DNA of 64,000 nucleotides, taken from Rhodospirillaceae bacterium (lineage in GTDB: Bacteria; Pseudomonadota; Alphaproteobacteria; GCA-2731375). Below the pieces are notes generated by a model. The model was not told the origin of the DNA and ran no database searches. It saw only the letters and a program-made list of their open reading frames with translations. Made by a program: the position numbers and the translations under genes. Of the stretch, positions 1,330 to 19,780 are shown piece by piece (position 1 is the first letter of the stretch; each line of letters starts with the position of its first letter). The DNA lies in NCBI GenBank assembly GCA_018660265.1, contig JABJKS010000110.1, forward strand, positions 1 to 64,000. Direction: 5' to 3'.

Positions 1330-3783
1330 CTAGTCGGAACCGCTGGCTTCCAGGCCGGGGCGTATTAACGGCTGACGGTCGCTGTCGCGTTCGTACTTGC
1401 GGGCCGGATTGTTGATTACATCGGCCAAGGGTGCCGCCTGGAATGAAGCTTGCACCTGACGTTCCGGCGGGGTGCCGTATAATGTGGTGCGCTGAACGGG
1501 GCTGCGATCCAGATCACGGATCAAGGCATCCATGGCATGGGGGGGTAGTTCCTGACCATGTTCGGAACCGGCGGCGCGGGTAATGGTTTCATTCATCAAG
1601 GTGCCGCCCATGTCGTTGACGCCTGCATTCAAAGCCGCCTTGATGCCGTCCCGGCCCATCTTGACCCAGGATGTCTGAATATTTGTGATGTGCGGATGCA
1701 GGGCAAGACGCGCCACGGCATGCATCAACAACGCCTCCCGATAGGTGGGGCCCATGCGGGCGCGGCCTTTTAGATAGATTGGCGCTTCCATATGTACGAA
1801 CGGCAATGGCACCAATTCCGTGAAACCGCCCGTGCGTTTTTGTAGATCCCGTAATCGCAACATATGACGGGCCCAATGAACGGGCCGGTCAACATGACCG
1901 AACATGATCGTTGCCGTGGTGCGGAACCCGACGCCATGGGCAGTCTCCATCACCTCCAACCATTGATCTACCGTCAGCTTGTCTGGGCAGAGCACCCGGC
2001 GGACCTCTTCGTCCAAAATTTCCGCCGCCGTGCCGGGCAATGAACCCAGGCCGGCTGCTTTCAACTGGGTCAGAAATTCGGTCAGTGAAATGCCAAGGGT
2101 CTCAGCCCCTTGATAGACTTCCAGGGGTGAGAAAGCATGGATATGCATTTTTGGTGCAGCAGCTTTTACCGCGCCCAGAATATCCAGATAAGTCTGGCCG
2201 GTATATTCAGGGTGAATGCCGCCCTGCATGCAGACTTCCGTAGCACCTCGATCCCAGGCCTCACCGACCCGACGACCGATTTCATCCAGCGACAAATCAT
2301 AGGGACGGCCGCGCAGGTTCTCGCTCAACTTGCCTTTGGAAAAGGCACAAAATTGGCATTTGAAATAGCAGATGTTGGTATAATTGATATTCCGCACGAC
2401 AACGTAGGAGACATCATCTCCATTGACCTTTTGCCGCAGGCTATCAGCTGCTTGAAGGACGGTGGCCACTTCGCCGCCACGGGCGTCGAACAACCGCGTG
2501 ATCTCGTCCTCATTCAGGTCTTCGCCGTCTGTGGCGCGGGCCAGCAATTTATCAAGCTCCGGCACATGGGGCGAGGCCGTGCTAATCGCCACGGGGGGTG
2601 CCATATCAATGCCCGGCGCCCAGGTGTCCGTGCGCGCCAGACCAGCCGCATCAACCCGGTGCAGAACAGCAGGGACAAAGGCCGGATCCAGCCAACGCTC
2701 TGCCTGTTGCGCATAATTTGGATAGATCGCCAAACGTTCCACAAGATGCTTGCCCTGGCGGGCCGTATCATCGGCCAGTTGGCGTAAATGCGGCCAGGGT
2801 GCCTCCGGGTTCACGTGGTCCGGCGTGACGGGGGAAACACCGCCCCAATCATCAATGCCTGCATCGATCAGGCTGGGGCTGTCGCCGGGGCTAAGATTTG
2901 GCGGCGCTTGAATGTGCATTTCAGGGCCAAATATCAGACGCGCCACGGCAATGCTCCAGCGCAACTCGTCTATGGGTGCATCGGGCCAGTCGGCCATGCG
3001 GGTATCATCTTTGGCGCGAAAATTTTGCACGATGATTTCCTGGATGTGACCATATTGTTCATGCAGATCACGGATCGCCAATAACGCCTCTACCCGTTCT
3101 TCCCGAGTCTCGCCAATGCCGATTAGGATACCCGTCGTAAACGGTATCGCCAGTTTGCCCGCCGCTTCAATCGTGGCCAGGCGCACCTTTGGGTCCTTGT
3201 CGGGCGAGCCATGATGACAGGCACCTTTTTCCATCAGGCGCGGTGATATGCTCTCCAGCATGATGCCTTGGGAAATTGACACCTCACGCAGAGAGGCCAA
3301 TTCGCCCTCATTCATCACGCCTGGGTTCAGGTGCGGGAACAAACCCGTTTCCTCGAACACCAGCAAAGCCATGGCGCGCAAATAATCCAGGGTGGTTTCA
3401 TAGCCCAATTCGGCCAGTTCTTCGCGCGCCACGCGATAGCGCAATTCCGGCTTATCGCCCAGGGTGAACAGCGCTTCGTTACAGCCGGCTTCGGCACCGG
3501 CGCGGGCGATTTCCAGTACTTCATCAGGCATCATGAAGGCCCGCTGTCCACGCCTGGGCGGATGGGCAAAGGTGCAATAATGGCAAACATCGCGGCACAG
3601 CTGGGTCAGGGGTATGAAAACTTTACGGGAATAGCTGATCGTGCGACCGTGCCCCTTGTCGCGCAGGCTGGCGGCTTTTTTTTGTAAGCCGGTCAGGTCT
3701 GTTGCATGGACAAGCGCCAGGGCCTCGTCTCGGTCGGGGTTCCGCTGGCCCACCCAGGCCGCTATGTTCAACTCAGACGCCAT
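1330..3783 (-). CDS. fbiC: Bifunctional FO synthase FbiC (CofG-CofH fusion)
   Basis: FbiC makes the deazaflavin chromophore FO (7,8-didemethyl-8-hydroxy-5-deazariboflavin) from tyrosine and the pyrimidine 5-amino-6-ribitylaminouracil. Two radical-SAM modules are visible. The N-terminal CofG half has the cluster motif CRDVCHYC near residue 65, and the C-terminal CofH half has CYFKCQFC in its first third. The length, about 817 residues, fits the fused bacterial/actinobacterial form rather than separate archaeal CofG and CofH. A start 39 bases upstream (3822) is possible but overlaps cofC. The ATG at 3783 has AAGGGG about 9 bases upstream and opens MASELN. It is the last gene of a minus-strand npdG-cofE-cofD-cofC-fbiC run. 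Confidence 0.95.
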   Translation of the reverse strand: MASELNIAAWVGQRNPDRDEALALVHATDLTGLQKKAASLRDKGHGRTISYSRKVFIPLTQLCRDVCHYCTFAHPPRRGQRAFMMPDEVLEIARAGAEAGCNEALFTLGDKPELRYRVAREELAELGYETTLDYLRAMALLVFEETGLFPHLNPGVMNEGELASLREVSISQGIMLESISPRLMEKGACHHGSPDKDPKVRLATIEAAGKLAIPFTTGILIGIGETREERVEALLAIRDLHEQYGHIQEIIVQNFRAKDDTRMADWPDAPIDELRWSIAVARLIFGPEMHIQAPPNLSPGDSPSLIDAGIDDWGGVSPVTPDHVNPEAPWPHLRQLADDTARQGKHLVERLAIYPNYAQQAERWLDPAFVPAVLHRVDAAGLARTDTWAPGIDMAPPVAISTASPHVPELDKLLARATDGEDLNEDEITRLFDARGGEVATVLQAADSLRQKVNGDDVSYVVVRNINYTNICYFKCQFCAFSKGKLSENLRGRPYDLSLDEIGRRVGEAWDRGATEVCMQGGIHPEYTGQTYLDILGAVKAAAPKMHIHAFSPLEVYQGAETLGISLTEFLTQLKAAGLGSLPGTAAEILDEEVRRVLCPDKLTVDQWLEVMETAHGVGFRTTATIMFGHVDRPVHWARHMLRLRDLQKRTGGFTELVPLPFVHMEAPIYLKGRARMGPTYREALLMHAVARLALHPHITNIQTSWVKMGRDGIKAALNAGVNDMGGTLMNETITRAAGSEHGQELPPHAMDALIRDLDRSPVQRTTLYGTPPERQVQASFQAAPLADVINNPARKYERDSDRQPLIRPGLEASGSD

Positions 3784-3805
3784 TCCAATTCTACCCCTTA
3801 GCCCC

Positions 3806-4462
3806 TTATCCCTTGAGCACACGGGCCGCGATGCCCGAGGCTTTCAGGTACTGTAAACTGCCGCAATCTCCGGCGCCGACCCTATCCCCGGTACAAAACA
3901 GCCGCAGATCAGCGGCTGTGTCAATATCCAAAGCGAAACCGGCCAATTCCAATATGGTCGGCTCCACCCCATGATCCCGCAACATTTGACAATGCCGATT
4001 GAAACTATCGGGGCCAAAGGCCGGTTGCAACAGGTCTGGCGGCCACAGGGCCAAGCAATTTGTCCCATCCCGGTCACGTGACGGCACCACGCAGGCGCCT
4101 GGTGCCGATATTTGCGCATTGGCAATTTGGCCGACTTCATCAGGCGTAATCAGAGGCACATCGCCGGGCACATGCATCATTGCCGCGATGCCTTCCCCCG
4201 CTAATGTCTGGCCTGCCTGGGCTACTGCCGCGCTATAGCCACCTGCCCCTCTTTCGGACATCACCCGCACGCCCTGCCAGCGCGCCTCGTTCAGTACTTT
4301 TTCGTCACTACTGATGACCACGACGCCATCCAGGGCACCCAGCGCGTTCAGAACATCGCGCAACATATGTTCCGCCAATTGGCTGCGTTCCTCGGGCGAC
4401 AGCACATCCGCCAGACGTTGTTTGGGAGAGGAAAACCCCTTGATGGGCACCACCGCCCACAT
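3806..4462 (-). CDS. cofC: 2-phospho-L-lactate/PEP guanylyltransferase CofC (FbiD)
   Basis: A 218-residue nucleotidyltransferase that activates a three-carbon phosphoacid (2-phospholactate, phosphoenolpyruvate or 3-phosphoglycerate, depending on lineage) with GTP for transfer to FO. The N-terminal VPIKGFSSPKQRLA, the acidic metal site HVPGDVPL, DRDGTNCL and FGPDSFNRH are CofC/FbiD signatures. Which phosphoacid is used cannot be decided by eye. The start overlaps the cofD stop by one base (TAATG arrangement), which suggests translational coupling. Confidence 0.93.
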   Translation of the reverse strand: MWAVVPIKGFSSPKQRLADVLSPEERSQLAEHMLRDVLNALGALDGVVVISSDEKVLNEARWQGVRVMSERGAGGYSAAVAQAGQTLAGEGIAAMMHVPGDVPLITPDEVGQIANAQISAPGACVVPSRDRDGTNCLALWPPDLLQPAFGPDSFNRHCQMLRDHGVEPTILELAGFALDIDTAADLRLFCTGDRVGAGDCGSLQYLKASGIAARVLKG

Positions 4463-5415
4463 TAGCTGCGACAGCTTTCGGCAAAGGCCAGAACATCACG
4501 GGCTAGTTCTTCCCGATCAGCAAGGCTTTGCATCACGGTTTTGCTCACCAATGGCTTGATACCCAGGGCGGCAACCGTATCCGCCTGATCCGCATCACTA
4601 TGGTCGAGGATAAAACCGTCCAGCAAATCGCCGTAATGTTCCGCCACGGCCAAGGCCGTGGACGGCATGCCCAATTCCGCCATCATCTTCGCTGCCGGGC
4701 CCTTGATCGCCATACCCGCGACGATGGGCGAGACAGCAATAATCGGTGCGTCGGCAACTTTCATAGCCTCCCGCACACCCGACAACGACAAAATGGGGTC
4801 AATACTGACAAATGGATTAGACGGGGTGATGATAATCGCCTGCAAATCCGCGTCTGCCAGCGTGGCCATGAATTCCCGTTGCGGCTTTGCCGTCGCAATA
4901 CCGTTGAAATCAAAGCCGGTGACCACCGGTTCACAACGGTCGCGGACAAAATAATGTTGAAAGGCCAAGGCACCATCTGGGGTCTGTACCATGGTCCGCA
5001 CGGGATCATTGGTCATTGGGACCAGATGAGTGGTAAGGTCCAGGCTGGAAGTAATGGCTCTCGTAAAATCAGACAGGCTATCACCTTTTGCCAAAGCCTG
5101 GGTACGCAGCACATGCAAGGCCAGATCACGGTCACCAAGGTTGAACCAATTTTCGCCGCCAAATTCACCTAGCGCTTCCATAAAGCGCCACCCTTCATCG
5201 GCCCGGCCCCAGCCCTTCACCTCGTCGTTCAATCCGGCAAGGGCATAGGTGTTCGAATCCAGGTCCGGGCAAATGGTCAGGCCGAGATGTTCGAAATCAT
5301 CACCGACATTGGCGACCACCAGCAGCCTGTCGCCCAGGTCCAGACGGCTAAGGCCCAAGGCCAGTTTGGCACCACCCACGCCACCAGATAACGCAATGAT
5401 CTTATGATCGCCCAT
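4462..5415 (-). CDS. cofD: 2-phospho-L-lactate transferase CofD (FbiA)
   Basis: CofD/FbiA transfers the phosphoacid moiety from the CofC product to FO, giving F420-0 or dehydro-F420-0. At 317 residues it has the family length. The N-terminal ALSGGVGGAKLALGL loop and VANVGDDFEHLGLTICPDLD are diagnostic, followed by NWFNLGDRDLALHVLRT and IITPSNPFVSIDPIL. The start overlaps the cofE stop by one base and the end overlaps the cofC start by one base, so all three are probably translated as a coupled unit. Confidence 0.95.
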   Translation of the reverse strand: MGDHKIIALSGGVGGAKLALGLSRLDLGDRLLVVANVGDDFEHLGLTICPDLDSNTYALAGLNDEVKGWGRADEGWRFMEALGEFGGENWFNLGDRDLALHVLRTQALAKGDSLSDFTRAITSSLDLTTHLVPMTNDPVRTMVQTPDGALAFQHYFVRDRCEPVVTGFDFNGIATAKPQREFMATLADADLQAIIITPSNPFVSIDPILSLSGVREAMKVADAPIIAVSPIVAGMAIKGPAAKMMAELGMPSTALAVAEHYGDLLDGFILDHSDADQADTVAALGIKPLVSKTVMQSLADREELARDVLAFAESCRS

Positions 5416-6185
5416 CAGCGAAACATATCCTGTTCAGCTGGTCTTGGTAACGCATCGGCACCCATATCCGAGTCTGGGAAGCTGACACCACGGATAACCA
5501 CCACAGGCTGGCCTTCATTGCCCTGCCCCTGCAAGATAGAGGCTGCGGAGGAAAGCTCATCCGCCAGCCCAACTTCGCTGACCATGAGTTCACGGCCATA
5601 CAGGTCCGGCTCGCCCCGCAGGTCCCATAATGCGGGCAGGCCCGCCGAACCAATCGCCAAACCCGTCGTGCCCTGACGCCAGGCCCGGCCAACGGAATCG
5701 TTGATGACGACGGCTACATCAACACCATATCGTTCTCCCAGGGCATGCCGCAACTTACGGCAATCATCATCCGGATCAACGGGTAGCAGCAGAACATGTT
5801 CCGAACCATCCGCCTGTTCCACATTGGAGGCATCAATGCCTGCATTGGCCATGACGATGCCCAAACGGTGCGCTACCACCAAAACGCCGGGACGTTTGCC
5901 GACAATATCAACGGATTCATCCAGAACCAATTGCACCTGGCGGGGGTCTTTATCCACTTCAACCGCCAATGCTTCCGCCTCAGCCGAGGGGGTAATATCG
6001 CGCAGATCAAATATCCGGCCATTGGCCTTGGAGACGATTTTTTGGGCCAGGACCAGGATGTCGCCGGCTTTTAGGGTTTCGTCAGCGCGGACCAAGCCTT
6101 GAGAAATCATCTCGACCAGATCATCGCCCGGCTGCACCATCGGCATACCGGGCAAGGCAAACAATTGCATGCGGGAGGTCTTCAT
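5415..6185 (-). CDS. cofE: F420-0:L-glutamate ligase CofE
   Basis: CofE adds the gamma-linked glutamate tail to F420-0 using GTP. Family motifs seen are LVLAQKIVSKANGR, MANAGIDASNV, LLLPVDPDDDCRKLR and VVINDSVGRAWRQGTTGLAIG. At 256 residues it is the ligase domain alone. The C-terminal FMN/nitroreductase domain found in mycobacterial FbiB, which reduces dehydro-F420-0, is absent, so that step must be done by another protein or is not needed here. No good ribosome site is visible before the ATG at 6185; a second ATG at 6170 is possible. Confidence 0.93.
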   Translation of the reverse strand: MKTSRMQLFALPGMPMVQPGDDLVEMISQGLVRADETLKAGDILVLAQKIVSKANGRIFDLRDITPSAEAEALAVEVDKDPRQVQLVLDESVDIVGKRPGVLVVAHRLGIVMANAGIDASNVEQADGSEHVLLLPVDPDDDCRKLRHALGERYGVDVAVVINDSVGRAWRQGTTGLAIGSAGLPALWDLRGEPDLYGRELMVSEVGLADELSSAASILQGQGNEGQPVVVIRGVSFPDSDMGADALPRPAEQDMFR

Positions 6186-6191
6186 CGGGTT

Positions 6192-6881
6192 CTAGTGCTC
6201 ACCACTGTTCGCCGAACCCGGTGTCCCGGTAATCCGAATGCCGGCACCAGCGATCTTATAGCGGTTGTTCATGAAAATGAGGGCTGAGGTCAAGGCCTCG
6301 GCAACAACGGAATTGTCGATCCGGCCAGCATGCCAGGCCCGCATAGAGGCATCTTCTGCCAAACCAACGACAATTTCCCGTGCCTCGGGATCGTTGCCGC
6401 AGACCAGGATATCGCAATCAATATCATGCGCCAGATCCGTCAAATGATCAGCCGCGACATTCTGAAAGGCGGAAACAACCCTAACGCCATCGCCCAGGAA
6501 AACCTGCGCGCCTTTGCCCGCGGAACCATGTTCGGGCAAATGTACGGTACGCACTTTCGGCGGCATCAAAGGCACGGTCACATCGACCATAATCTTGCCC
6601 TGACAGCCCGGCTTGATGGCTTCCAACATAGGGGCCTGATTGGAAAACGGCACGGTCAATACGATGATTTCCGCCGCCGCCGCCGCCTCACTGTTTTCCA
6701 GTCCGCTAACTGTCGCGTCAGGGGCAAGGTCGGCCAGTCGGGCAGCGCCCTTATCGGCACTGTCCTGGGCCCGGGAGCCAATGATGATGCTGTGTCCGGC
6801 AGTGGCCCAACGCAGTGCCAAGCCAAAGCCCAGCGCCCCCGTACCGCCGATTACGGCGATGGTATGTTTCGTCTCTGTCAT
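6192..6881 (-). CDS. npdG: NADPH-dependent F420 reductase NpdG
   Basis: A 229-residue Rossmann protein that moves hydride between NADPH and F420, here most likely charging F420 for the neighbouring LLM enzymes. The glycine-rich AVIGGTGALGFGLALRWA, IIIGSRAQDSA (NADP phosphate-binding SR), IIVLTVPFSNQ and VVSAFQNVAADHL fit the TIGR01915 NpdG/Fno family. The AGGAAG ribosome site 7 bases before the ATG confirms the start. It is spaced 6 bases from cofE and reads into the F420 synthesis genes, so supply and reduction of the cofactor are probably co-expressed. Confidence 0.9.
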   Translation of the reverse strand: MTETKHTIAVIGGTGALGFGLALRWATAGHSIIIGSRAQDSADKGAARLADLAPDATVSGLENSEAAAAAEIIVLTVPFSNQAPMLEAIKPGCQGKIMVDVTVPLMPPKVRTVHLPEHGSAGKGAQVFLGDGVRVVSAFQNVAADHLTDLAHDIDCDILVCGNDPEAREIVVGLAEDASMRAWHAGRIDNSVVAEALTSALIFMNNRYKIAGAGIRITGTPGSANSGEH

Positions 6882-11615: not shown

Positions 11616-12575
11616 TTAGCCGGCAGACATAACCTCGCGGATGCCGGCGATGATACGGTGACGGTTCGGGAAGACATGATCTTCCAGCCCGGGGCTATAG
11701 GGGATGGGCACTTGCAAGGCGCAAACCCGGCACAAGGGCGCTTTCATAGCCGCGAACGTGGTTGCGTCCTCCGTCACCAGCGCAGCGATTTCAGCCGATG
11801 CACCTGCCGTGGGTCCCGCCTCATCGGCGATCACCAGACGTCCGGTTTTTTGCACCGAGGCGCGGATGGTGTCATTGTCCATTGGGTACAAGGTACGGGG
11901 ATCGACAACCTCGACCGAGACGCCCTCCTTCTCCATCACCTCAGCTGCTGCCAATGCTTCATGCACCAACCAGGCCAGGGCGACGACAGTGATATCACTG
12001 CCCGTCCGCTTTACATCGGCCACACCAAGGGGAATGGTATAATCATCTTCCGGCACCTCCCCCTTGACACCCATCAGACGGGTGGATTCGAATGACAAAA
12101 CAGGGTTGTTGTCCCGGATCGCAGATTTCAACAGGCCCTTCATATCATAAGGCGTCGAGGGCAGGATCATCTTCAGGCCGGCCAAATTCATGAACATGGA
12201 ATAGGGGCTTTGCGAATGCTGGGCCGCCAGATTTGTGCCGCCGCCTACCGAAGACCGAAAGACGATGGGGAAGGTTTGCTGGCCACCGAACATATAGTGG
12301 ATTTTTGAAGCCTGATTGACGATCTGATCCATGGCAACGAACGAAAATGTGACCATGGACCAGTTCACGATGGGGCGATAACCCGAACCCGCCGCCCCGA
12401 TGGCGATGCCTGAAAAGGCGTTCTCGGCAATGGGTGTGGCGCGCACCCGGGCGGCACCGAATTCTTCCACCATGGCCGGCGGGGCGTCTGTTGCCAGATG
12501 AATTGTCTTGGGGTCGCGGTTCATTTCTTCGGTGACCGCTTCCATCCCGGCGCGGGCATAAGATATCTCTCGCAT
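11616..12575 (-). CDS. 2-oxoacid dehydrogenase E1 component, beta subunit
   Basis: A 319-residue transketolase-like subunit that pairs with the alpha subunit just upstream to form a thiamine-diphosphate 2-oxoacid or acetoin dehydrogenase E1. Motifs are AENAFSGIAIGAAGSGYRPI, FRSSVGGGTNLAAQHSQS and a C-terminal transketolase-C domain with VVDPRTLYPMD. Of two close ATGs, the one at 12575 sits 7 bases after a strong AGGAGG, while that at 12581 is too near it. No E2 or E3 gene is in the window, so the exact substrate (pyruvate, acetoin or branched-chain acid) is open. Confidence 0.9.
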   Translation of the reverse strand: MREISYARAGMEAVTEEMNRDPKTIHLATDAPPAMVEEFGAARVRATPIAENAFSGIAIGAAGSGYRPIVNWSMVTFSFVAMDQIVNQASKIHYMFGGQQTFPIVFRSSVGGGTNLAAQHSQSPYSMFMNLAGLKMILPSTPYDMKGLLKSAIRDNNPVLSFESTRLMGVKGEVPEDDYTIPLGVADVKRTGSDITVVALAWLVHEALAAAEVMEKEGVSVEVVDPRTLYPMDNDTIRASVQKTGRLVIADEAGPTAGASAEIAALVTEDATTFAAMKAPLCRVCALQVPIPYSPGLEDHVFPNRHRIIAGIREVMSAG

Positions 12576-12586
12576 TGTCATCCCTC

Positions 12587-13555
12587 CTAATCCGCAAACA
12601 CATCATCCAGCGCCGATTCCGGCGCTGGGAATGGAGACGCCTCGGCGAAGGCGACGGAAGCTTCGATCTGGGCCAGAATTTCATCATCCATGGCCTGGAA
12701 TTCCGCATCACTGAATTGGCCCTGTTGCTGTTTTAATTGTTCCAGCAACATCGGGATGGGATCGCGCGCAACCCAAGCGGCGATTTCCGAAGCCGGGCGC
12801 GGGTCCACTGCGCCGGGGCGTTCCGTATGGTTGCGATGGCGATAGGTTTTGCATTCCAGCAACGTCGGCCCCTCACCGGCGCGGGCCCGGGCGATGGCCT
12901 GCGTCGCCGCGTCGTAGACGGCGACGACATCATTGCCGTCGACCACGATGCCCGGCATGCCATAGCCCGCGGCCCGGCCAGCGACGTCGGCAGCGCCATG
13001 GGTCATCGTGGCAGCGGTATTTGCGGCCCAGGAATTATGTTCGCAAACATAAATCACCGGCAATTTCCAGCTGGCCGCAATATTCAGGGATTCATGGAAC
13101 GAACCGGCGTTCGAGGCACCGTCACCGAAAAAGCCGACCGCGACACCGCCATCCCCATCCATCTGCGCGGCCAACCCGGCACCCGTGATGATCGACAGAC
13201 CACCACCCACGATACCGTTGGCTCCCAGCATGCCAATGGAGAAATCAGCAATATGCATGGAGCCGCCCTTGCCTTTGCAAAAGCCGTCCTCGCGTCCGTA
13301 AAGTTCCGCCATCATGCGGTTCAGATCGGCCCCTTTGGCAATACAATGGCCATGGCCGCGATGGTTGGAGATAATTTGATCGCCATCCTTCAGTGCGGAG
13401 CAAACCCCGACTGCGACGGCTTCTTCGCCAATATAGCAGTGGACGACGCCATAGATGGCCCCGCTCTGATAATCATCCGAGGCGCGCTCCTCGAAACGAC
13501 GAATGGTCTGCATCTGGCGCAACATTTCGCGCTGTAGCTCAGGTGAGGCTGACAT
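12587..13555 (-). CDS. 2-oxoacid dehydrogenase E1 component, alpha subunit
   Basis: A 322-residue thiamine-diphosphate-binding subunit. It contains the ThDP motif GDGASNAGSFHESLNIAASW ending in CEHNSW, HCYIGEEAVAVG near the start, and HRGHGHCIAKGADLNRMMAEL and GREDGFCKGKGGSMH, typical of pyruvate/acetoin dehydrogenase alpha chains. An upstream in-frame start at 13591 exists, but the ATG at 13555 (MSASPELQ) has GAGGGA upstream and gives normal family length. Its stop lies 12 bases before the beta-subunit start, and the AGGAGG site for beta overlaps the stop. Confidence 0.92.
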   Translation of the reverse strand: MSASPELQREMLRQMQTIRRFEERASDDYQSGAIYGVVHCYIGEEAVAVGVCSALKDGDQIISNHRGHGHCIAKGADLNRMMAELYGREDGFCKGKGGSMHIADFSIGMLGANGIVGGGLSIITGAGLAAQMDGDGGVAVGFFGDGASNAGSFHESLNIAASWKLPVIYVCEHNSWAANTAATMTHGAADVAGRAAGYGMPGIVVDGNDVVAVYDAATQAIARARAGEGPTLLECKTYRHRNHTERPGAVDPRPASEIAAWVARDPIPMLLEQLKQQQGQFSDAEFQAMDDEILAQIEASVAFAEASPFPAPESALDDVFAD

Positions 13556-13733
13556 GTCTGCGTTTCCCTCGATCATTGTTTTTGTTTTCACCCATTAGTT
13601 TGCGTGTCTTAGCCGTCAGACGCAATAGGGAGGCAGATTTGGAAACGCTGGAATGGGAACCTAATTCATTCGCCGGACTCGCCGGTATAGTGAGTGGGAC
13701 GCCCTGTTGAAAGGCACGCCAACAAAGCCAGTA

Positions 13734-14402
13734 TCAGCTCTTTTCAAATGCCGGTCCGTCGAAACGTTCCTTCATGGCGATCTCTTCAACCGAATTTCGC
13801 TTTAGTTTGGTCAGCTGTTTCTTGGGTTTGCCGAGGGGTACAACGGCGGCGACGGCGAAGTGTGAAGGAATATTCAATAATATCTGCACCTCTCCCTCAC
13901 GGGCCGAGGCCAAGGTGGTGATGGTGCCGCCAAAGCCGGCCTGCCGGGCACCCAGCAATGTATTCCAGACGAAGGGATAGATCGAGGCACCGGATATAAC
14001 CCCTACCCTGTCCAGGTCCTGATCCATGGAGGCCACGGCCTTCAGGTCGACCAGAAACACCAGCACGACCGAGGCGTCGCGAAAGGAATTGGTCAGCATT
14101 GTGGGCGCGGGCGTTGCCTCGATTTCGGCTGCCGTTACCTTCGTCGGGATCACCGCATTCCACGGATTTTCCCCGGCCTTGATTTGCGCCGCATAGCGTT
14201 TTGCGGCTGGCTCTGCCAGTTTGGCCAGGGCCTCACGCGTATTGGGATCACGAACAACGATGACCCGGTTACCCTGTCGATTGCCCCCTGACGGGGCGAA
14301 CCGGGCGTTTTCAATGAGTGCGTAGACGACATCATCCGGAACCTCTTCGCCGGTAAATTCCCGCGCAGAAAATGTCGTACGCATGGCTTCATTAAGTTCC
14401 AT
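13734..14402 (-). CDS. Nitroreductase-family FMN oxidoreductase
   Basis: A 222-residue flavin protein. Its N-terminus follows the nitroreductase pattern: R-T-FSAREFTGEEVPDDVVYAL, then FAPSGGNRQGNRVIVVRD for FMN phosphate binding, and GARQAGFGGTITTL in the second half. GGGGAA lies 7 bases before the ATG. Substrate unknown. The PSGGNRQ segment also occurs in the C-terminal domain of FbiB, which reduces dehydro-F420-0. Because cofE here lacks that domain, this protein is one candidate for the missing reductase, but that is speculation. It follows the Hen1-like gene by about 60 bases. Confidence 0.85.
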   Translation of the reverse strand: MELNEAMRTTFSAREFTGEEVPDDVVYALIENARFAPSGGNRQGNRVIVVRDPNTREALAKLAEPAAKRYAAQIKAGENPWNAVIPTKVTAAEIEATPAPTMLTNSFRDASVVLVFLVDLKAVASMDQDLDRVGVISGASIYPFVWNTLLGARQAGFGGTITTLASAREGEVQILLNIPSHFAVAAVVPLGKPKKQLTKLKRNSVEEIAMKERFDGPAFEKS

Positions 14403-14463: not shown

Positions 14464-15069
14464 TCAAGCTTCGGCGCGTACAAATATTGCCATCTGACTG
14501 GCCGCGCCAAGGGTGGGGTGGGACCAGCCGATCCCCTGAAAGGTCGTCCGATAGCCGTTGCGGGTCCCAACGCCGCCGGCCCAAGCCTCAAATTTAGCCC
14601 GGCTCCATTCAAACTCATGCTCAGGATGACGCAGGCGATGGGAAGGTACACCGAGAAGTTCGTTGCATTCCTGATTGGGCGTTGTGATGATGACAAGGCC
14701 GGGCCGGAAACTATTGAAGATCGCCCGCTCTACCTGCGATAGACGGTCGGGGGGGATATGCTCAATCGTTTCCAACAACACGGCGGCATCGAAACCCGCG
14801 AGGTTTGGATCGGCATCCGTAAAGGATGCGTTCATCAGACGGATCCGTCCGCCGATTTTTACGCCGGCTCTTTCAAGCAGACGGGTGCTATCCTCCAGCG
14901 CCTGGCGGGAGGTATCGAGGCCGACAATGTTGTCAAAGAAATTATCCTGAGCCAGGACTTCCAGCAAAGGCCCGGTGCCGCAGCCAAGGTCGAGCACCCC
15001 GCGGGCAGCATGCGCCCGCAGGGTCTCTATCACCAGATCCAACCGCGCCTGATGCAGCGACGTGGTCAT
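14464..15069 (-). CDS. Stand-alone Hen1-like RNA 3'-terminal 2'-O-methyltransferase
   Basis: A 201-residue SAM-dependent methyltransferase: VLDLGCGTGPLLEVL (motif I) and GLDTSRQALED (motif II). The metal-binding pair ETIEH is followed by TPNQECNELLG and RHPEHEFEWSRAKFEAWA. These last two are the Hen1 hallmark, where Glu, Glu, His and a later His hold Mn2+ for 2'-O-methylation of RNA 3' ends. Bacterial Hen1 is usually about 450 residues with an N-terminal ligase-activating domain and is encoded next to Pnkp; here only the methyltransferase domain exists and no Pnkp is nearby. It starts 8 bases after the AidB-like gene. Confidence 0.8.
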   Translation of the reverse strand: MTTSLHQARLDLVIETLRAHAARGVLDLGCGTGPLLEVLAQDNFFDNIVGLDTSRQALEDSTRLLERAGVKIGGRIRLMNASFTDADPNLAGFDAAVLLETIEHIPPDRLSQVERAIFNSFRPGLVIITTPNQECNELLGVPSHRLRHPEHEFEWSRAKFEAWAGGVGTRNGYRTTFQGIGWSHPTLGAASQMAIFVRAEA

Positions 15070-15077
15070 TGACTATT

Positions 15078-16859
15078 CTAGGCCGCCGCCAAGGCCTGTG
15101 CCGTCGCCAGGTCTACTTTCTCCTCACCCAACAGCGCTGCTACGGCGGCGTCATTGTCATCTTCAATGGCGAGGGGATCGCCTGCGCGCAGGCGATGATC
15201 CATGACCATGCGGGCCAGGATCAGACGGGAAGCATCTTCGCCCATTTCGCCCAATCGGGCCCCCTCCGTGGCCAGCAACACTGCCGTTACCATGTGATAC
15301 AAGGCATCGGAGGCTTTCCGCGCCATAGGTTCATTACCGGTCATGGCAACTTTCTCGGCGAAGGCCACCGCACGGTCAATGGTACTGTCCAATTCACCCT
15401 TGAACTGGCCCGGCAGGCTCGTGGTATCGGCCAGCATGTCATGCATGGCCTCGGCCATTTGAACCTGCGCGCCAACTTTGGCAATGGCCCGGGTGGTGAC
15501 ATCCAGGGCATTGATATTGGAGGTCCCTTCCCACAACACCCCGATCATGGCGTCGCGCACCAGTTTGGAGTTGACCCAGTCTTCGATCAGGCCGTTGCCG
15601 CCCCGAACTTCCATTGCCCCCGTGGCAACCGTGATATTATCCCGGCAGGAGCGGAATTTCAGCAAAGGCGTCAGGATACGCGCCAGATTTGCCGCTTTCT
15701 CATCGCCCGCCTCCGCCAGTTCTAATTGCCGGCCCACGAACAGCGCCATGGACAAAACCTGCTCTGTCGGCACCATCAATTTCATCAACTGGCGGCGCAA
15801 CAAGGGCTTGTCGATGATCTTTTCACCGAACGCAATTCGGTTACGGGCCACCACCAGCGCCTCGTTCAGGCAGCGGCGCATCATGGCAGCAGCACGGACA
15901 CCATGGGATAGGCGTGACATGTTGACCTGGTCCATCATCAATTTCAGGCCGTTGTTGATGTCATTGCCGATCTCACCCAAGGGATAGGCCAGCGCACCGT
16001 CAAAGATAATCTCGCCTGAGGCCATGGACTTAGTGCCGAGTTTGTCTTTCAAGCGGACGACGCGGTATTTATTGCGGCTGCCATCATCAAGGTGGCGCGG
16101 CAGTGCGAACAGACCCAGGCCCTTGTTACCTTTCGCAGCACCTACGGGGCGGGCCAGCAATAGAGCTACATCACCGTCAACACAGGAACAGAACCACTTT
16201 TCGCCATACAGACGCCAATGCCCATCCTCCATGCGCGCCTCCAGCTCAATGTTGGAGACGTCCGAGCCGCCGGTTTTTTCCGTCATGAACTGGGCGCTTT
16301 TCAGGATCTTGCTCATGTCCTGGCTGTGCATGCCGGGCAGAAATTTCGCCTTCACCTCTTCCGAGGCATAGCGTTCAATCAGCAATGCGGAGGTATCGGT
16401 GACCGAGATGGGGCACATCAAACCGAATTCACCCTGCACAAACAGATACTGGAATATATATTTGGCCAGGGGCGGCACGGGGGCATCCCAACCGAATACG
16501 CCCGCCTTGCGTGACATGCAATGAATGCCGAAATCGCCAAAACCAATCTGTTCCATCTCCCGATAGGCGGGATGGAATTCGACCCAATCCTCATCAACGC
16601 CTTTCGGGCTGCGGGCATGTAGAATGGGGGTGTGACGGTCCGAGGTGCGGGATAATTCATCCAATCGGCCGCCGGCAATCTCGCCCAGGCGGCGATAATG
16701 CGGCTCCATATGATTGCGCAGCTTATCATCGAGATACAGCTTCAGCAGACCCTGAAGGCTATGGTCCACCTCAAAGAAATTCTGTCCCTGACAATCAGGT
16801 GCGACCCAATCGTTCAGATCCATTGCCTCAATCTGTGCTGCCAATGCGCCCGTATTCAT
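15078..16859 (-). CDS. Acyl-CoA dehydrogenase, AidB-like
   Basis: A 593-residue flavoprotein of the acyl-CoA dehydrogenase superfamily. TEKTGGSDVSNIE, LYGEKWFCSCVDGDVALLLA and RLKDKLGTKSMASGEI resemble the AidB branch rather than short-chain dehydrogenases. The C-terminal AMEVRGGNGLIEDWVNSKLVRD and VLWEGTSNINALDVT carry the catalytic-region signature, and an extra C-terminal helical region follows. AidB proteins are linked to alkylation stress, but many relatives are lipid enzymes. The ATG at 16859 has GGGGAT about 7 bases upstream and is preferred to a TTG at 16895. It diverges from a LysR gene and leads the Hen1-like gene. Confidence 0.85.
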   Translation of the reverse strand: MNTGALAAQIEAMDLNDWVAPDCQGQNFFEVDHSLQGLLKLYLDDKLRNHMEPHYRRLGEIAGGRLDELSRTSDRHTPILHARSPKGVDEDWVEFHPAYREMEQIGFGDFGIHCMSRKAGVFGWDAPVPPLAKYIFQYLFVQGEFGLMCPISVTDTSALLIERYASEEVKAKFLPGMHSQDMSKILKSAQFMTEKTGGSDVSNIELEARMEDGHWRLYGEKWFCSCVDGDVALLLARPVGAAKGNKGLGLFALPRHLDDGSRNKYRVVRLKDKLGTKSMASGEIIFDGALAYPLGEIGNDINNGLKLMMDQVNMSRLSHGVRAAAMMRRCLNEALVVARNRIAFGEKIIDKPLLRRQLMKLMVPTEQVLSMALFVGRQLELAEAGDEKAANLARILTPLLKFRSCRDNITVATGAMEVRGGNGLIEDWVNSKLVRDAMIGVLWEGTSNINALDVTTRAIAKVGAQVQMAEAMHDMLADTTSLPGQFKGELDSTIDRAVAFAEKVAMTGNEPMARKASDALYHMVTAVLLATEGARLGEMGEDASRLILARMVMDHRLRAGDPLAIEDDNDAAVAALLGEEKVDLATAQALAAA

Positions 16860-16919
16860 TTTGGATATCCCCATGCTGCGTTGATGTTTCGACAATGTGG
16901 CTCACACGCCGTTCCTTGA

Positions 16920-18005: not shown

Positions 18006-19061
18006 ATGTTCCTTCTTCAAATACACAGTAAAAGACGAGTTCGAACTGTCATTTCTTTGCTAACCGGCATCATTGGCGCAGCGGTTTTTTCCGTCATGCC
18101 GGCCAAAATCGCTGGCAGCGATGCTCTTGATGCAAGCCCCGCTTTGGAGCGCAAGGCGAAGACATTGGGCAATCGGCTCATGTCTGCTGCCGCAGGTGCC
18201 GCAGCGGGCGGCGAACGGGCTGCCGTAAATCAAGCAGCCGATGCGACCATCGATTTTCTATTGCCCGGCGTTGGATCGGAGGCCCCTGGCTGGTTGCAAC
18301 GAACAGAGTTCGAATGGAGCCTGCGGGAGGATAACAAGCCTGATTGGTCAATCCTGACTGTGCAACCACTATACCAATCCTTGATGCAGACCGATACCGT
18401 GTTCACGCAGATCAGTGCTTTGAGGAACCACCCGTTTGGTGAAGCGCGAACAACCACCAATCTGGGTATCGGTTATCGCCGCTTGTTGTTCAACGACACC
18501 ATCATGGTTGGTGCCAATAGTTTTTTTGATCATGAATGGCAACGCGATCACAGCCGGATCGGGCTGGGGGCAGAGGCGCGCTGGAACAATTTTGATTTCT
18601 ACGCCAATTACTACAACGCCATTTCCGGAACCAAATTCGAAGTACATCCAAACACCACGGAAAAGGCGTTGGACGGCTATGACGGAGAAATCGCCTCGCA
18701 AATCCCATATTTACCATCGGCGCGGGTACGGGCGAAGTTTTATCATTATGACGTTACGAGCGCATCGGACCTGGATGGCTGGAGCGCCGGAATTGAAGTG
18801 GACCTGCATCAAAACCTGCAACTCGAATTCGGTATAGATGATGACGACAGCAGTAGTGAAAAATGGTTCCTGCGTGTTCGCTTTTTGCCGGCCAGTCCAT
18901 ATCGCCCGGTTTTGTTACGCCGCAATCCCATAGACAGCGTCGCCTTCCGCCCCCGCAACATGCGAGAGCAGACTTTGAGCAAGGTTCGGCGCGAGAACGA
19001 GATCACTGTTCAACGAACCATCACGGTACGTGGCTCGGTGACAATTTCCAGGGGGACATGA
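18006..19061 (+). CDS. Inverse autotransporter beta-domain protein without passenger
   Basis: A 351-residue outer-membrane protein. A basic start and a hydrophobic stretch (ISLLTGIIGAAVFSVMPA) look like a signal peptide. The central region, with LQRTEFEWSLREDNKP, TNLGIGYRRLLFNDTIMVGA, NSFFDHEWQRDHSRIGLGAE and DFYANYYNA, matches the inverse-autotransporter (intimin/invasin) beta-barrel. The protein ends soon after the barrel, with a basic tail (TLSKVRRENEITVQRTITVRG) instead of Ig-like or lectin passenger repeats. It therefore may act as a pore or anchor rather than an adhesin. It overlaps the start region of the next secreted protein. Confidence 0.85.
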   Translation: MFLLQIHSKRRVRTVISLLTGIIGAAVFSVMPAKIAGSDALDASPALERKAKTLGNRLMSAAAGAAAGGERAAVNQAADATIDFLLPGVGSEAPGWLQRTEFEWSLREDNKPDWSILTVQPLYQSLMQTDTVFTQISALRNHPFGEARTTTNLGIGYRRLLFNDTIMVGANSFFDHEWQRDHSRIGLGAEARWNNFDFYANYYNAISGTKFEVHPNTTEKALDGYDGEIASQIPYLPSARVRAKFYHYDVTSASDLDGWSAGIEVDLHQNLQLEFGIDDDDSSSEKWFLRVRFLPASPYRPVLLRRNPIDSVAFRPRNMREQTLSKVRRENEITVQRTITVRGSVTISRGT

Positions 19062-19063
19062 TC

Positions 19064-19780
19064 ATGAAATGCCTCTCGTTCTTGTTGTTGACCATGGTCG
19101 CCCTGTCCCTTTCGATAGACGTTGTTCGGGCGCAGACCTCCGTCACGCCAGCCCAGTATCAAATCCAGGTGCAAAAAATTGAACTCTGTCGAGAATCTAC
19201 CTGCGCCTCCACACTTGTTTTGGGCGAACGGAGCGCCACGTTTGATCTTGCCGCCAGCTCTGCCGGAGCTGCCTCGGGGGCATATATCGAAAATGTTACA
19301 TTGACCCAGGGCGATAGCTTCTCCCACCTAAAGGTCACCATGTCCCGTAACATTGTGATTTCCGGCAATACGACAACGGCACTTGCCAATGCCGGCGGGG
19401 CGGGTGTGTCAGCGTTTTGTTATACAGATTCTACTGACAGCACATCAACCACGACGACGGCTGGCGTGGCCGGTACCAGCGTCGTATCGGCGGCAACGGC
19501 GGCTGGGTTGGCGGGCGGTCAAACCTTGGTCGTACCCGATCAAACTGGCAGCTATGCGGGGGATTTAACGACATCGTTTAGCGCGGAGGGCATCGCGATC
19601 ATCGATAGCACAACAATGACCTTTACCCAGGCGTTGGCCGCCGCCTTTACCGTATCTGCAACCACGCCGACGTTTGATATCGCCTTTGATGTGGCCAGCA
19701 AATTGCAATTTCAAGTGACGGGCGTGGGCGTCTGTAGCGCATTTATGTTGCCGCCCGGCGTAACCTACACAATTCAATAG
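19064..19780 (+). CDS. Secreted protein of unknown function, coupled to the beta-barrel gene
   Basis: A 238-residue protein with a clear signal peptide (MKCLSFLLLTMVALSLSIDVVRA, likely cleaved before QTS). The mature part is rich in Ser, Thr, Ala and Gly, with four cysteines (two near ELCRESTC, one at AFCY, one at GVCSAF) and alternating hydrophobic beta-type strands. I do not recognise a family. The ATG at 19064 has GGGGG about 8 bases upstream; an ATG at 19058 overlaps the preceding stop. Its tight coupling to the inverse-autotransporter gene suggests the two are exported and used together. Confidence 0.72.
   Translation: MKCLSFLLLTMVALSLSIDVVRAQTSVTPAQYQIQVQKIELCRESTCASTLVLGERSATFDLAASSAGAASGAYIENVTLTQGDSFSHLKVTMSRNIVISGNTTTALANAGGAGVSAFCYTDSTDSTSTTTTAGVAGTSVVSAATAAGLAGGQTLVVPDQTGSYAGDLTTSFSAEGIAIIDSTTMTFTQALAAAFTVSATTPTFDIAFDVASKLQFQVTGVGVCSAFMLPPGVTYTIQ

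Follow-up and report, generated by a model that had tools for sequence, protein, structure and literature searches.

The window, by which the whole 64,000-nucleotide stretch of DNA analyzed here is meant, encodes a Hen1 protein that consists of the methyltransferase domain alone (solo Hen1). Its family, fold, metal site, and solo build, its position in a separate lineage, the constraint on its gene, and the absence of the partners searched for are established here. On the basis of the sequence and a structural model, the solo Hen1 probably, though by no means surely, works unaided as a metal-dependent 3'-terminal RNA 2'-O-methyltransferase, and its mark would remain at the terminus. No description of a stand-alone bacterial Hen1 was found in the literature, as judged by the titles and abstract beginnings of open-licence papers; subscription papers could hold one.

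Hen1 Family Membership and Domain Organization

The solo Hen1 gene (14464..15069, minus strand) is an intact ORF with an ATG start and codes for a protein of 201 aa comprising the methyltransferase domain only. Comparison with NCBIfam gave a match to TIGR04074 (bacter_Hen1) of 206.7 bits (E 4.5e-61), which is below the full-length cut-off of 340 bits. The match was confined to model positions 264–461 of 462, i.e., the methyltransferase half, and the N-terminal half of Hen1 was absent, in agreement with the methyltransferase-domain-only build described in the earlier note. Derivation from a longer gene by fusion or frameshift was rejected, as 8 bases separate the solo Hen1 gene from the end of its upstream neighbor and no remnant of the N-terminal half was present. 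Generic Pfam methyltransferase models matched far more weakly, the best at 50.8 bits. A sequence search of the PDB placed bacterial Hen1 methyltransferase domains at the top (3jwh, E 4.8e-45), followed by human and plant HEN1. The AdoMet motif VLDLGCGTG is located at residues 25–33, and the protein shares 36–45% identity with 23 full-length Hen1 sequences and 33% with human HENMT1.

The AlphaFold2 model, built from 18 solo proteins, showed a mean pLDDT of 91.2 and a pTM of 0.89. A structure search with this model retrieved 3jwh first (Z 29.4, rmsd 1.6, 189 aligned), followed later by plant 3htx (Z 25.4), human 5wy0 (Z 24.9), and 4xrp (Z 20.0). The first methyltransferase other than Hen1 scored Z 19.1, tied with 4xrp and well below the other Hen1 entries. 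The top eight structural entries were the same eight Hen1 entries that had been matched by sequence. The solo protein is a member of the Hen1 methyltransferase domain family by sequence, fold, and metal site.

Sampling and Phylogeny of the Solo Lineage

A contig scan with six patterns yielded 21 loci, comprising 19 solo Hen1s (L005–L023) and two other methyltransferases (L024 and L025). Evenly drawn surveys covered 385 genomes of the class, 12 of them with Hen1, and 398 of the phylum, 11 of them with Hen1; the 20 distinct Hen1-bearing survey genomes were divided by open-frame length into 10 solo and 10 full-length carriers. The profile searches, and not the motif scan, supplied six further solo genomes. 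A match was present in 22 plasmid records, and among the 11 examined, one carried a solo gene (Comamonas sp. C11). On this plasmid (L026, 7519–11447), the solo Hen1 gene has a TraR/DksA-type zinc finger gene on one side and cfa on the other, with the gene for peptide chain release factor 3 following. The solo carriers also include Halomonas sp. A40-4, Vreelandella species, and Pelovirga terrestris.

A maximum likelihood tree was constructed from 50 domains (26 solo, 23 full-length, and human HENMT1), leaving out L014, which is cut by a contig end, same-genome duplicates, and L024 and L025, which are not Hen1. A branch with 99/99 support, recovered in 100% of 200 bootstrap trees, set all 26 solo sequences apart from the 23 full-length sequences. 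The window protein, for which placement in a Hen1 tree had been proposed as a check, lies within this separate solo branch. The split persisted when UbiG was added (100/99). The solo sequences originate from the window's own class (Alphaproteobacteria, as judged by its relatives), Comamonadaceae, Halomonadaceae, a further genus of the phylum (G461, G521, and G554), and Pelovirga with a related MAG. They span alpha-, beta-, and gammaproteobacteria and Pelovirga. Judged from these sequences, the solo Hen1 is a separate branch of stand-alone proteins occurring in several bacterial classes and not a one-off.

Rooting with Escherichia coli UbiG failed as it was too distant (branch 7.9), and either the solo or the full-length form may have come first. 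Human HENMT1 formed a very long branch; a tree with the solo sequences and human HENMT1 on one side was not rejected (p-AU 0.549), which is no proof of kinship. A viral origin was also considered and rejected: the matches listed for viral contigs were partial, low-identity methyltransferases, the best of them 35% over part of the protein, and phages gave three weak matches only.

Metal Site and Residues Distinguishing Solo From Full-Length Hen1

The metal ligands of human HEN1 are E132, E135, H136, and H181, and in plant HEN1, the metal is held jointly by the four ligands and by the terminal ribose through its 2' and 3' hydroxyls (PMC10781085). Alignment showed that E100, E103, H104, and H151 of the solo Hen1 correspond to the four human ligands. 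They are identical in 26/26 solo sequences, 23/23 full-length sequences, and the human sequence, which bears out the Hen1 metal site (ETIEH plus a later His) recognized in the earlier note. In addition, R147, F153, E154, and W155 are invariant in 19/19 solo sequences.

The motif ETIEHIPP is not diagnostic by itself since the two other methyltransferases, L024 and L025, also carry it, without HxFEW. Position 101 is occupied by Thr in 26/26 solo sequences (ETIEH) and by Val in 23/23 full-length sequences (EVIEH). On the aligned sequences, ETIEH is a mark of the solo lineage itself, with the caveat that ETIEHIPP was among the six patterns of the contig scan, which favors that motif. The FxPP motif was uninformative, as it was found at a matching place in neither the solo nor the full-length group.

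Nine positions (101, 85, 105, 106, 111, 113, 140, 166, and 184) differ consistently between solo and full-length proteins, including D/E85 vs. Y, P106 vs. D/E, and V113 vs. F/L; G166 is also distinct. Given these differences, one of which, T101, lies inside the metal motif, the substrate may have shifted. With its fold retained, the solo clade could now act on something other than RNA 3' ends, be it a small molecule, a nucleotide, or a particular tRNA position. The metabolic gene neighbors described below are consistent with such a change, as is the report (PMC1397878) that, outside its own family, HEN1 is most closely related to UbiG-like small-molecule enzymes. The invariance of the four ribose-linked ligands, and of R147, F153, E154, and W155, argues against it, and we regard a changed substrate as unlikely.

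Repair Partners in Solo-Carrying Genomes

Within the complex of Pnkp and Hen1, the Pnkp ligase is unlocked by the N-terminal domain of its partner; methylation occurs inside the sealed RNA, at the 2'-OH on which a ribotoxin would rely (PMC4411300). The genome of which the window is part is 97.2% complete (5.55 Mb in 121 contigs) and contains one Hen1; the second match of the Hen1 search was far weaker (24 bits, 27% identity). The earlier note had reported no Pnkp, and this holds for the window; the rest of this nearly complete genome likewise gave no Pnkp match over the cut-off. Two sub-cut-off Pnkp matches (33 and 22 bits) each covered a single stretch of the model, and similar weak matches also arose in the E. 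coli and Bacillus subtilis controls. Profile searches of the same genome for Hen1_L (PF12623), RtcB (PF01139), and RNA_ligase (PF09414) gave no match. A Pnkp gene or a Hen1 N-terminal gene elsewhere in the genome, the findings that had been named as speaking against a solo enzyme, were looked for and not found.

Four annotated Pnkp proteins and three Hen1 N-terminal halves served as queries against the individual loci. Both kinds of match were present in 22/22 full-length loci (21 distinct genes), and the same queries matched neither Pnkp nor the Hen1 N-terminal half in any of the 27 solo loci. Pnkp over the cut-off was found in none of the 11 genomes of the window's genus, five of which showed partial sub-cut-off matches, and in none of 12 further solo-carrying genomes or records, one of them a plasmid only. 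Taken together, these 23 genomes or records, among which G461, G521, G554, G685, and the Comamonas chromosome do not figure, gave no Pnkp over the cut-off. Piwi (PF02171) was found in 0/26 solo-carrying genomes, with a control signal in Methanocaldococcus jannaschii only. The solo Hen1 is situated outside the Pnkp-Hen1 cassette: its score is below the full-length cut-off, and the N-terminal domain and Pnkp are both absent.

Two plasmid loci of the cassette type deserve mention. In Hymenobacter sp. DG25B (L128, 2156–4417), the Hen1 N-terminal half and the methyltransferase domain are not in one frame, the domain being in a 348-aa frame next to Pnkp; this full-length Hen1 gene looks broken or misassembled. 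In Asticcacaulis (L027, 9133–10922), two nucleotidyltransferase-domain genes follow the Hen1-Pnkp pair and are possible extra members of this repair cassette.

The solo domain could still serve RNA repair in trans, in a pathway with a separate, unrecognized kinase, phosphatase, and ligase. A dispersed system of this kind, Pnkp1-Rnl-Hen1, is known, in which hen1 is far from the other genes (PMC4411300), and RtcB was found in 2/26 solo carriers (Pelovirga and the related MAG). However, RtcB was absent from the other 24, including 11/11 genomes of the genus, and no PF09414 ligase was found in the one genome searched for it. The ligase-activating N-terminal half is missing from the solo Hen1, and the Hen1 of the dispersed system (4xrp), with 436 residues, is a distant structural match of 22% identity. 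Repair in trans appears a minor prospect, about as doubtful as a changed substrate.

Conservation, Gene Neighborhood, and Selection

Fifteen genomes of the order were searched for Hen1. The solo gene was present in 11/11 genomes of the window's genus with the frames open; in one of them, the frame is truncated at the end of the contig. In the same family, a sister genus (G011) harbors a full-length Hen1 adjoining a complete Pnkp (1389 bits), and the other three genomes gave no Hen1 match.

Gene neighbors were compared by tblastn with the window's proteins at ten genus loci and 16 loci outside the genus. The gene 8 bases upstream (15078..16895, minus strand) encodes an acyl-CoA dehydrogenase with an AidB-like N-terminal domain, which lies upstream of Hen1, adjacent or 1–3 kb away, in 6/10 genus loci; it is a neighbor, with no proposed role in the Hen1 mechanism. 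Directly downstream is a gene for a nitroreductase-family protein (13734..14402, minus strand), kept in 9/9 genus loci reaching it, followed by genes for the alpha (12587..13591, minus strand) and beta (11616..12581, minus strand) subunits of a dehydrogenase E1 component, each present in 7/7 genus loci reaching it. The Hen1 gene therefore has a stable metabolic neighborhood within the genus. Among the five window genes, only Hen1 recurred at the 16 outside loci, with the metabolic neighbors found in 0/16. Since the neighbors are metabolic and not shared between lineages, the context gives no pointer to RNA; their variety suggests a self-contained enzyme. At two loci of the further solo genus (L119, 6612–8716, and L120, 3836–5989; genomes G461 and G521), Hen1 adjoins frames that resemble, as judged by eye, EgtB/OvoA-type thiol-histidine biosynthesis genes.

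Nei-Gojobori dN/dS values were 0.09–0.24 in the 14 closest pairs of 11 sequences, rough estimates as some dS values exceeded 1. The solo Hen1 gene is under purifying selection, and it is not a fragment because it occurs in 11/11 genus genomes with conserved gene order and low dN/dS. The reading of the gene as a decaying, functionless remnant of a Pnkp-Hen1 cassette draws on the complete full-length pair kept in G011. However, the G011 protein groups with full-length Hen1s, apart from the solo sequences, and no trace of the N-terminal half or Pnkp was found at the 27 solo loci. Together with the open frames and the constraint, this makes decay, already disfavored, highly improbable.

Hen1 is less conserved (65–81% identity) than its neighbors (78–93%) at the same genus loci, which counts against the terminal-marking reading preferred here. 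Such faster evolution would fit an anti-phage or conflict module that counters ribotoxins or phage repair by methylating tRNA or RNA fragments, as would the solo gene on the Comamonas plasmid and the tie of canonical Hen1 to ribotoxin immunity (PMC4411300). Against this, the gene occurs in every genome of the genus within a constant metabolic setting, and 50,697 phage records contained no close relative, only three weak matches of <32%. A conflict module is accordingly a rather improbable role.

The window has other features. A compact F420 cofactor cluster (1330–6881, minus strand) comprises cofGH, cofC, cofD, cofE, and an NADPH-dependent F420 reductase; its host is an alphaproteobacterium, as the relatives suggest. 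A short, 351-aa inverse-autotransporter beta-domain protein (PF11924; 18006–19061, plus strand) has no evident passenger, and a 305-aa frame after it (18863–19780) has no Pfam or NCBIfam match.

Proposed Function of the Solo Hen1

The C-terminal fragment of Clostridium thermocellum Hen1 is reportedly an autonomous, active methyltransferase. In the proposed mechanism, the solo Hen1 would take molecules with free 2' and 3' hydroxyls, the substrate presumably being RNA. The metal site formed by E100, E103, H104, and H151 would hold the last ribose, and its 2'-OH would be methylated by the solo Hen1 in an AdoMet-dependent reaction. Since the Hen1 N-terminal half and the Pnkp ligase are both missing, the methyl group should remain terminal and would not be buried in a repaired junction. 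Such a mark would block tailing and re-ligation and, by analogy with eukaryotic HEN1, 3' exonucleases.

More tentatively, this repair-independent lineage might mark a defined class of bacterial RNA, such as small RNAs or tRNA fragments, with a terminal 2'-O-methyl group. Such a 3'-end marking pathway would then be the bacterial equivalent, in function, of the eukaryotic mark, operating where Piwi, Pnkp, and, mostly, RtcB are lacking. If a separate and conserved lineage dispenses with the cassette, some bacteria would retain only the methylation of 3' ends, and the marking of RNA ends may serve some bacteria for purposes other than repair. The solo Hen1 also offers a short bacterial relative for the question of the origin of eukaryotic HEN1, which was raised in 2006 (PMC1397878).

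Comparison With Known Hen1 Systems

The solo Hen1 has the methyltransferase domain, the metal site, and the HxFEW region in common with the Hen1 of the Pnkp-Hen1 cassette (TIGR04074; 3jwg, 3jwh, 3jwi, and 3jwj). It differs in lacking the N-terminal half, in having no Pnkp in its locus or genome, in forming a separate branch, and in carrying ETIEH in place of EVIEH. The Pnkp1-Rnl-Hen1 system (4xrp and 4xru) is alike in that its Hen1 gene does not adjoin a Pnkp gene; however, its Hen1 is a 436-residue protein with 22% identity, and Pnkp1 and Rnl are encoded elsewhere, whereas the window's genome has no RNA_ligase (PF09414). Eukaryotic HEN1/HENMT1 (3htx, 4xcx, and 5wy0) likewise has a Hen1 domain without the bacterial-type N-terminal half or Pnkp, and the mark is presumably terminal in both. 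The solo protein differs from it in its modest identity to the human enzyme (33%), in the lack of plant-type N-terminal regions, and in the absence of Piwi from the 26 carriers. On paper, the solo Hen1 would work more like eukaryotic HEN1 than like the bacterial repair Hen1.
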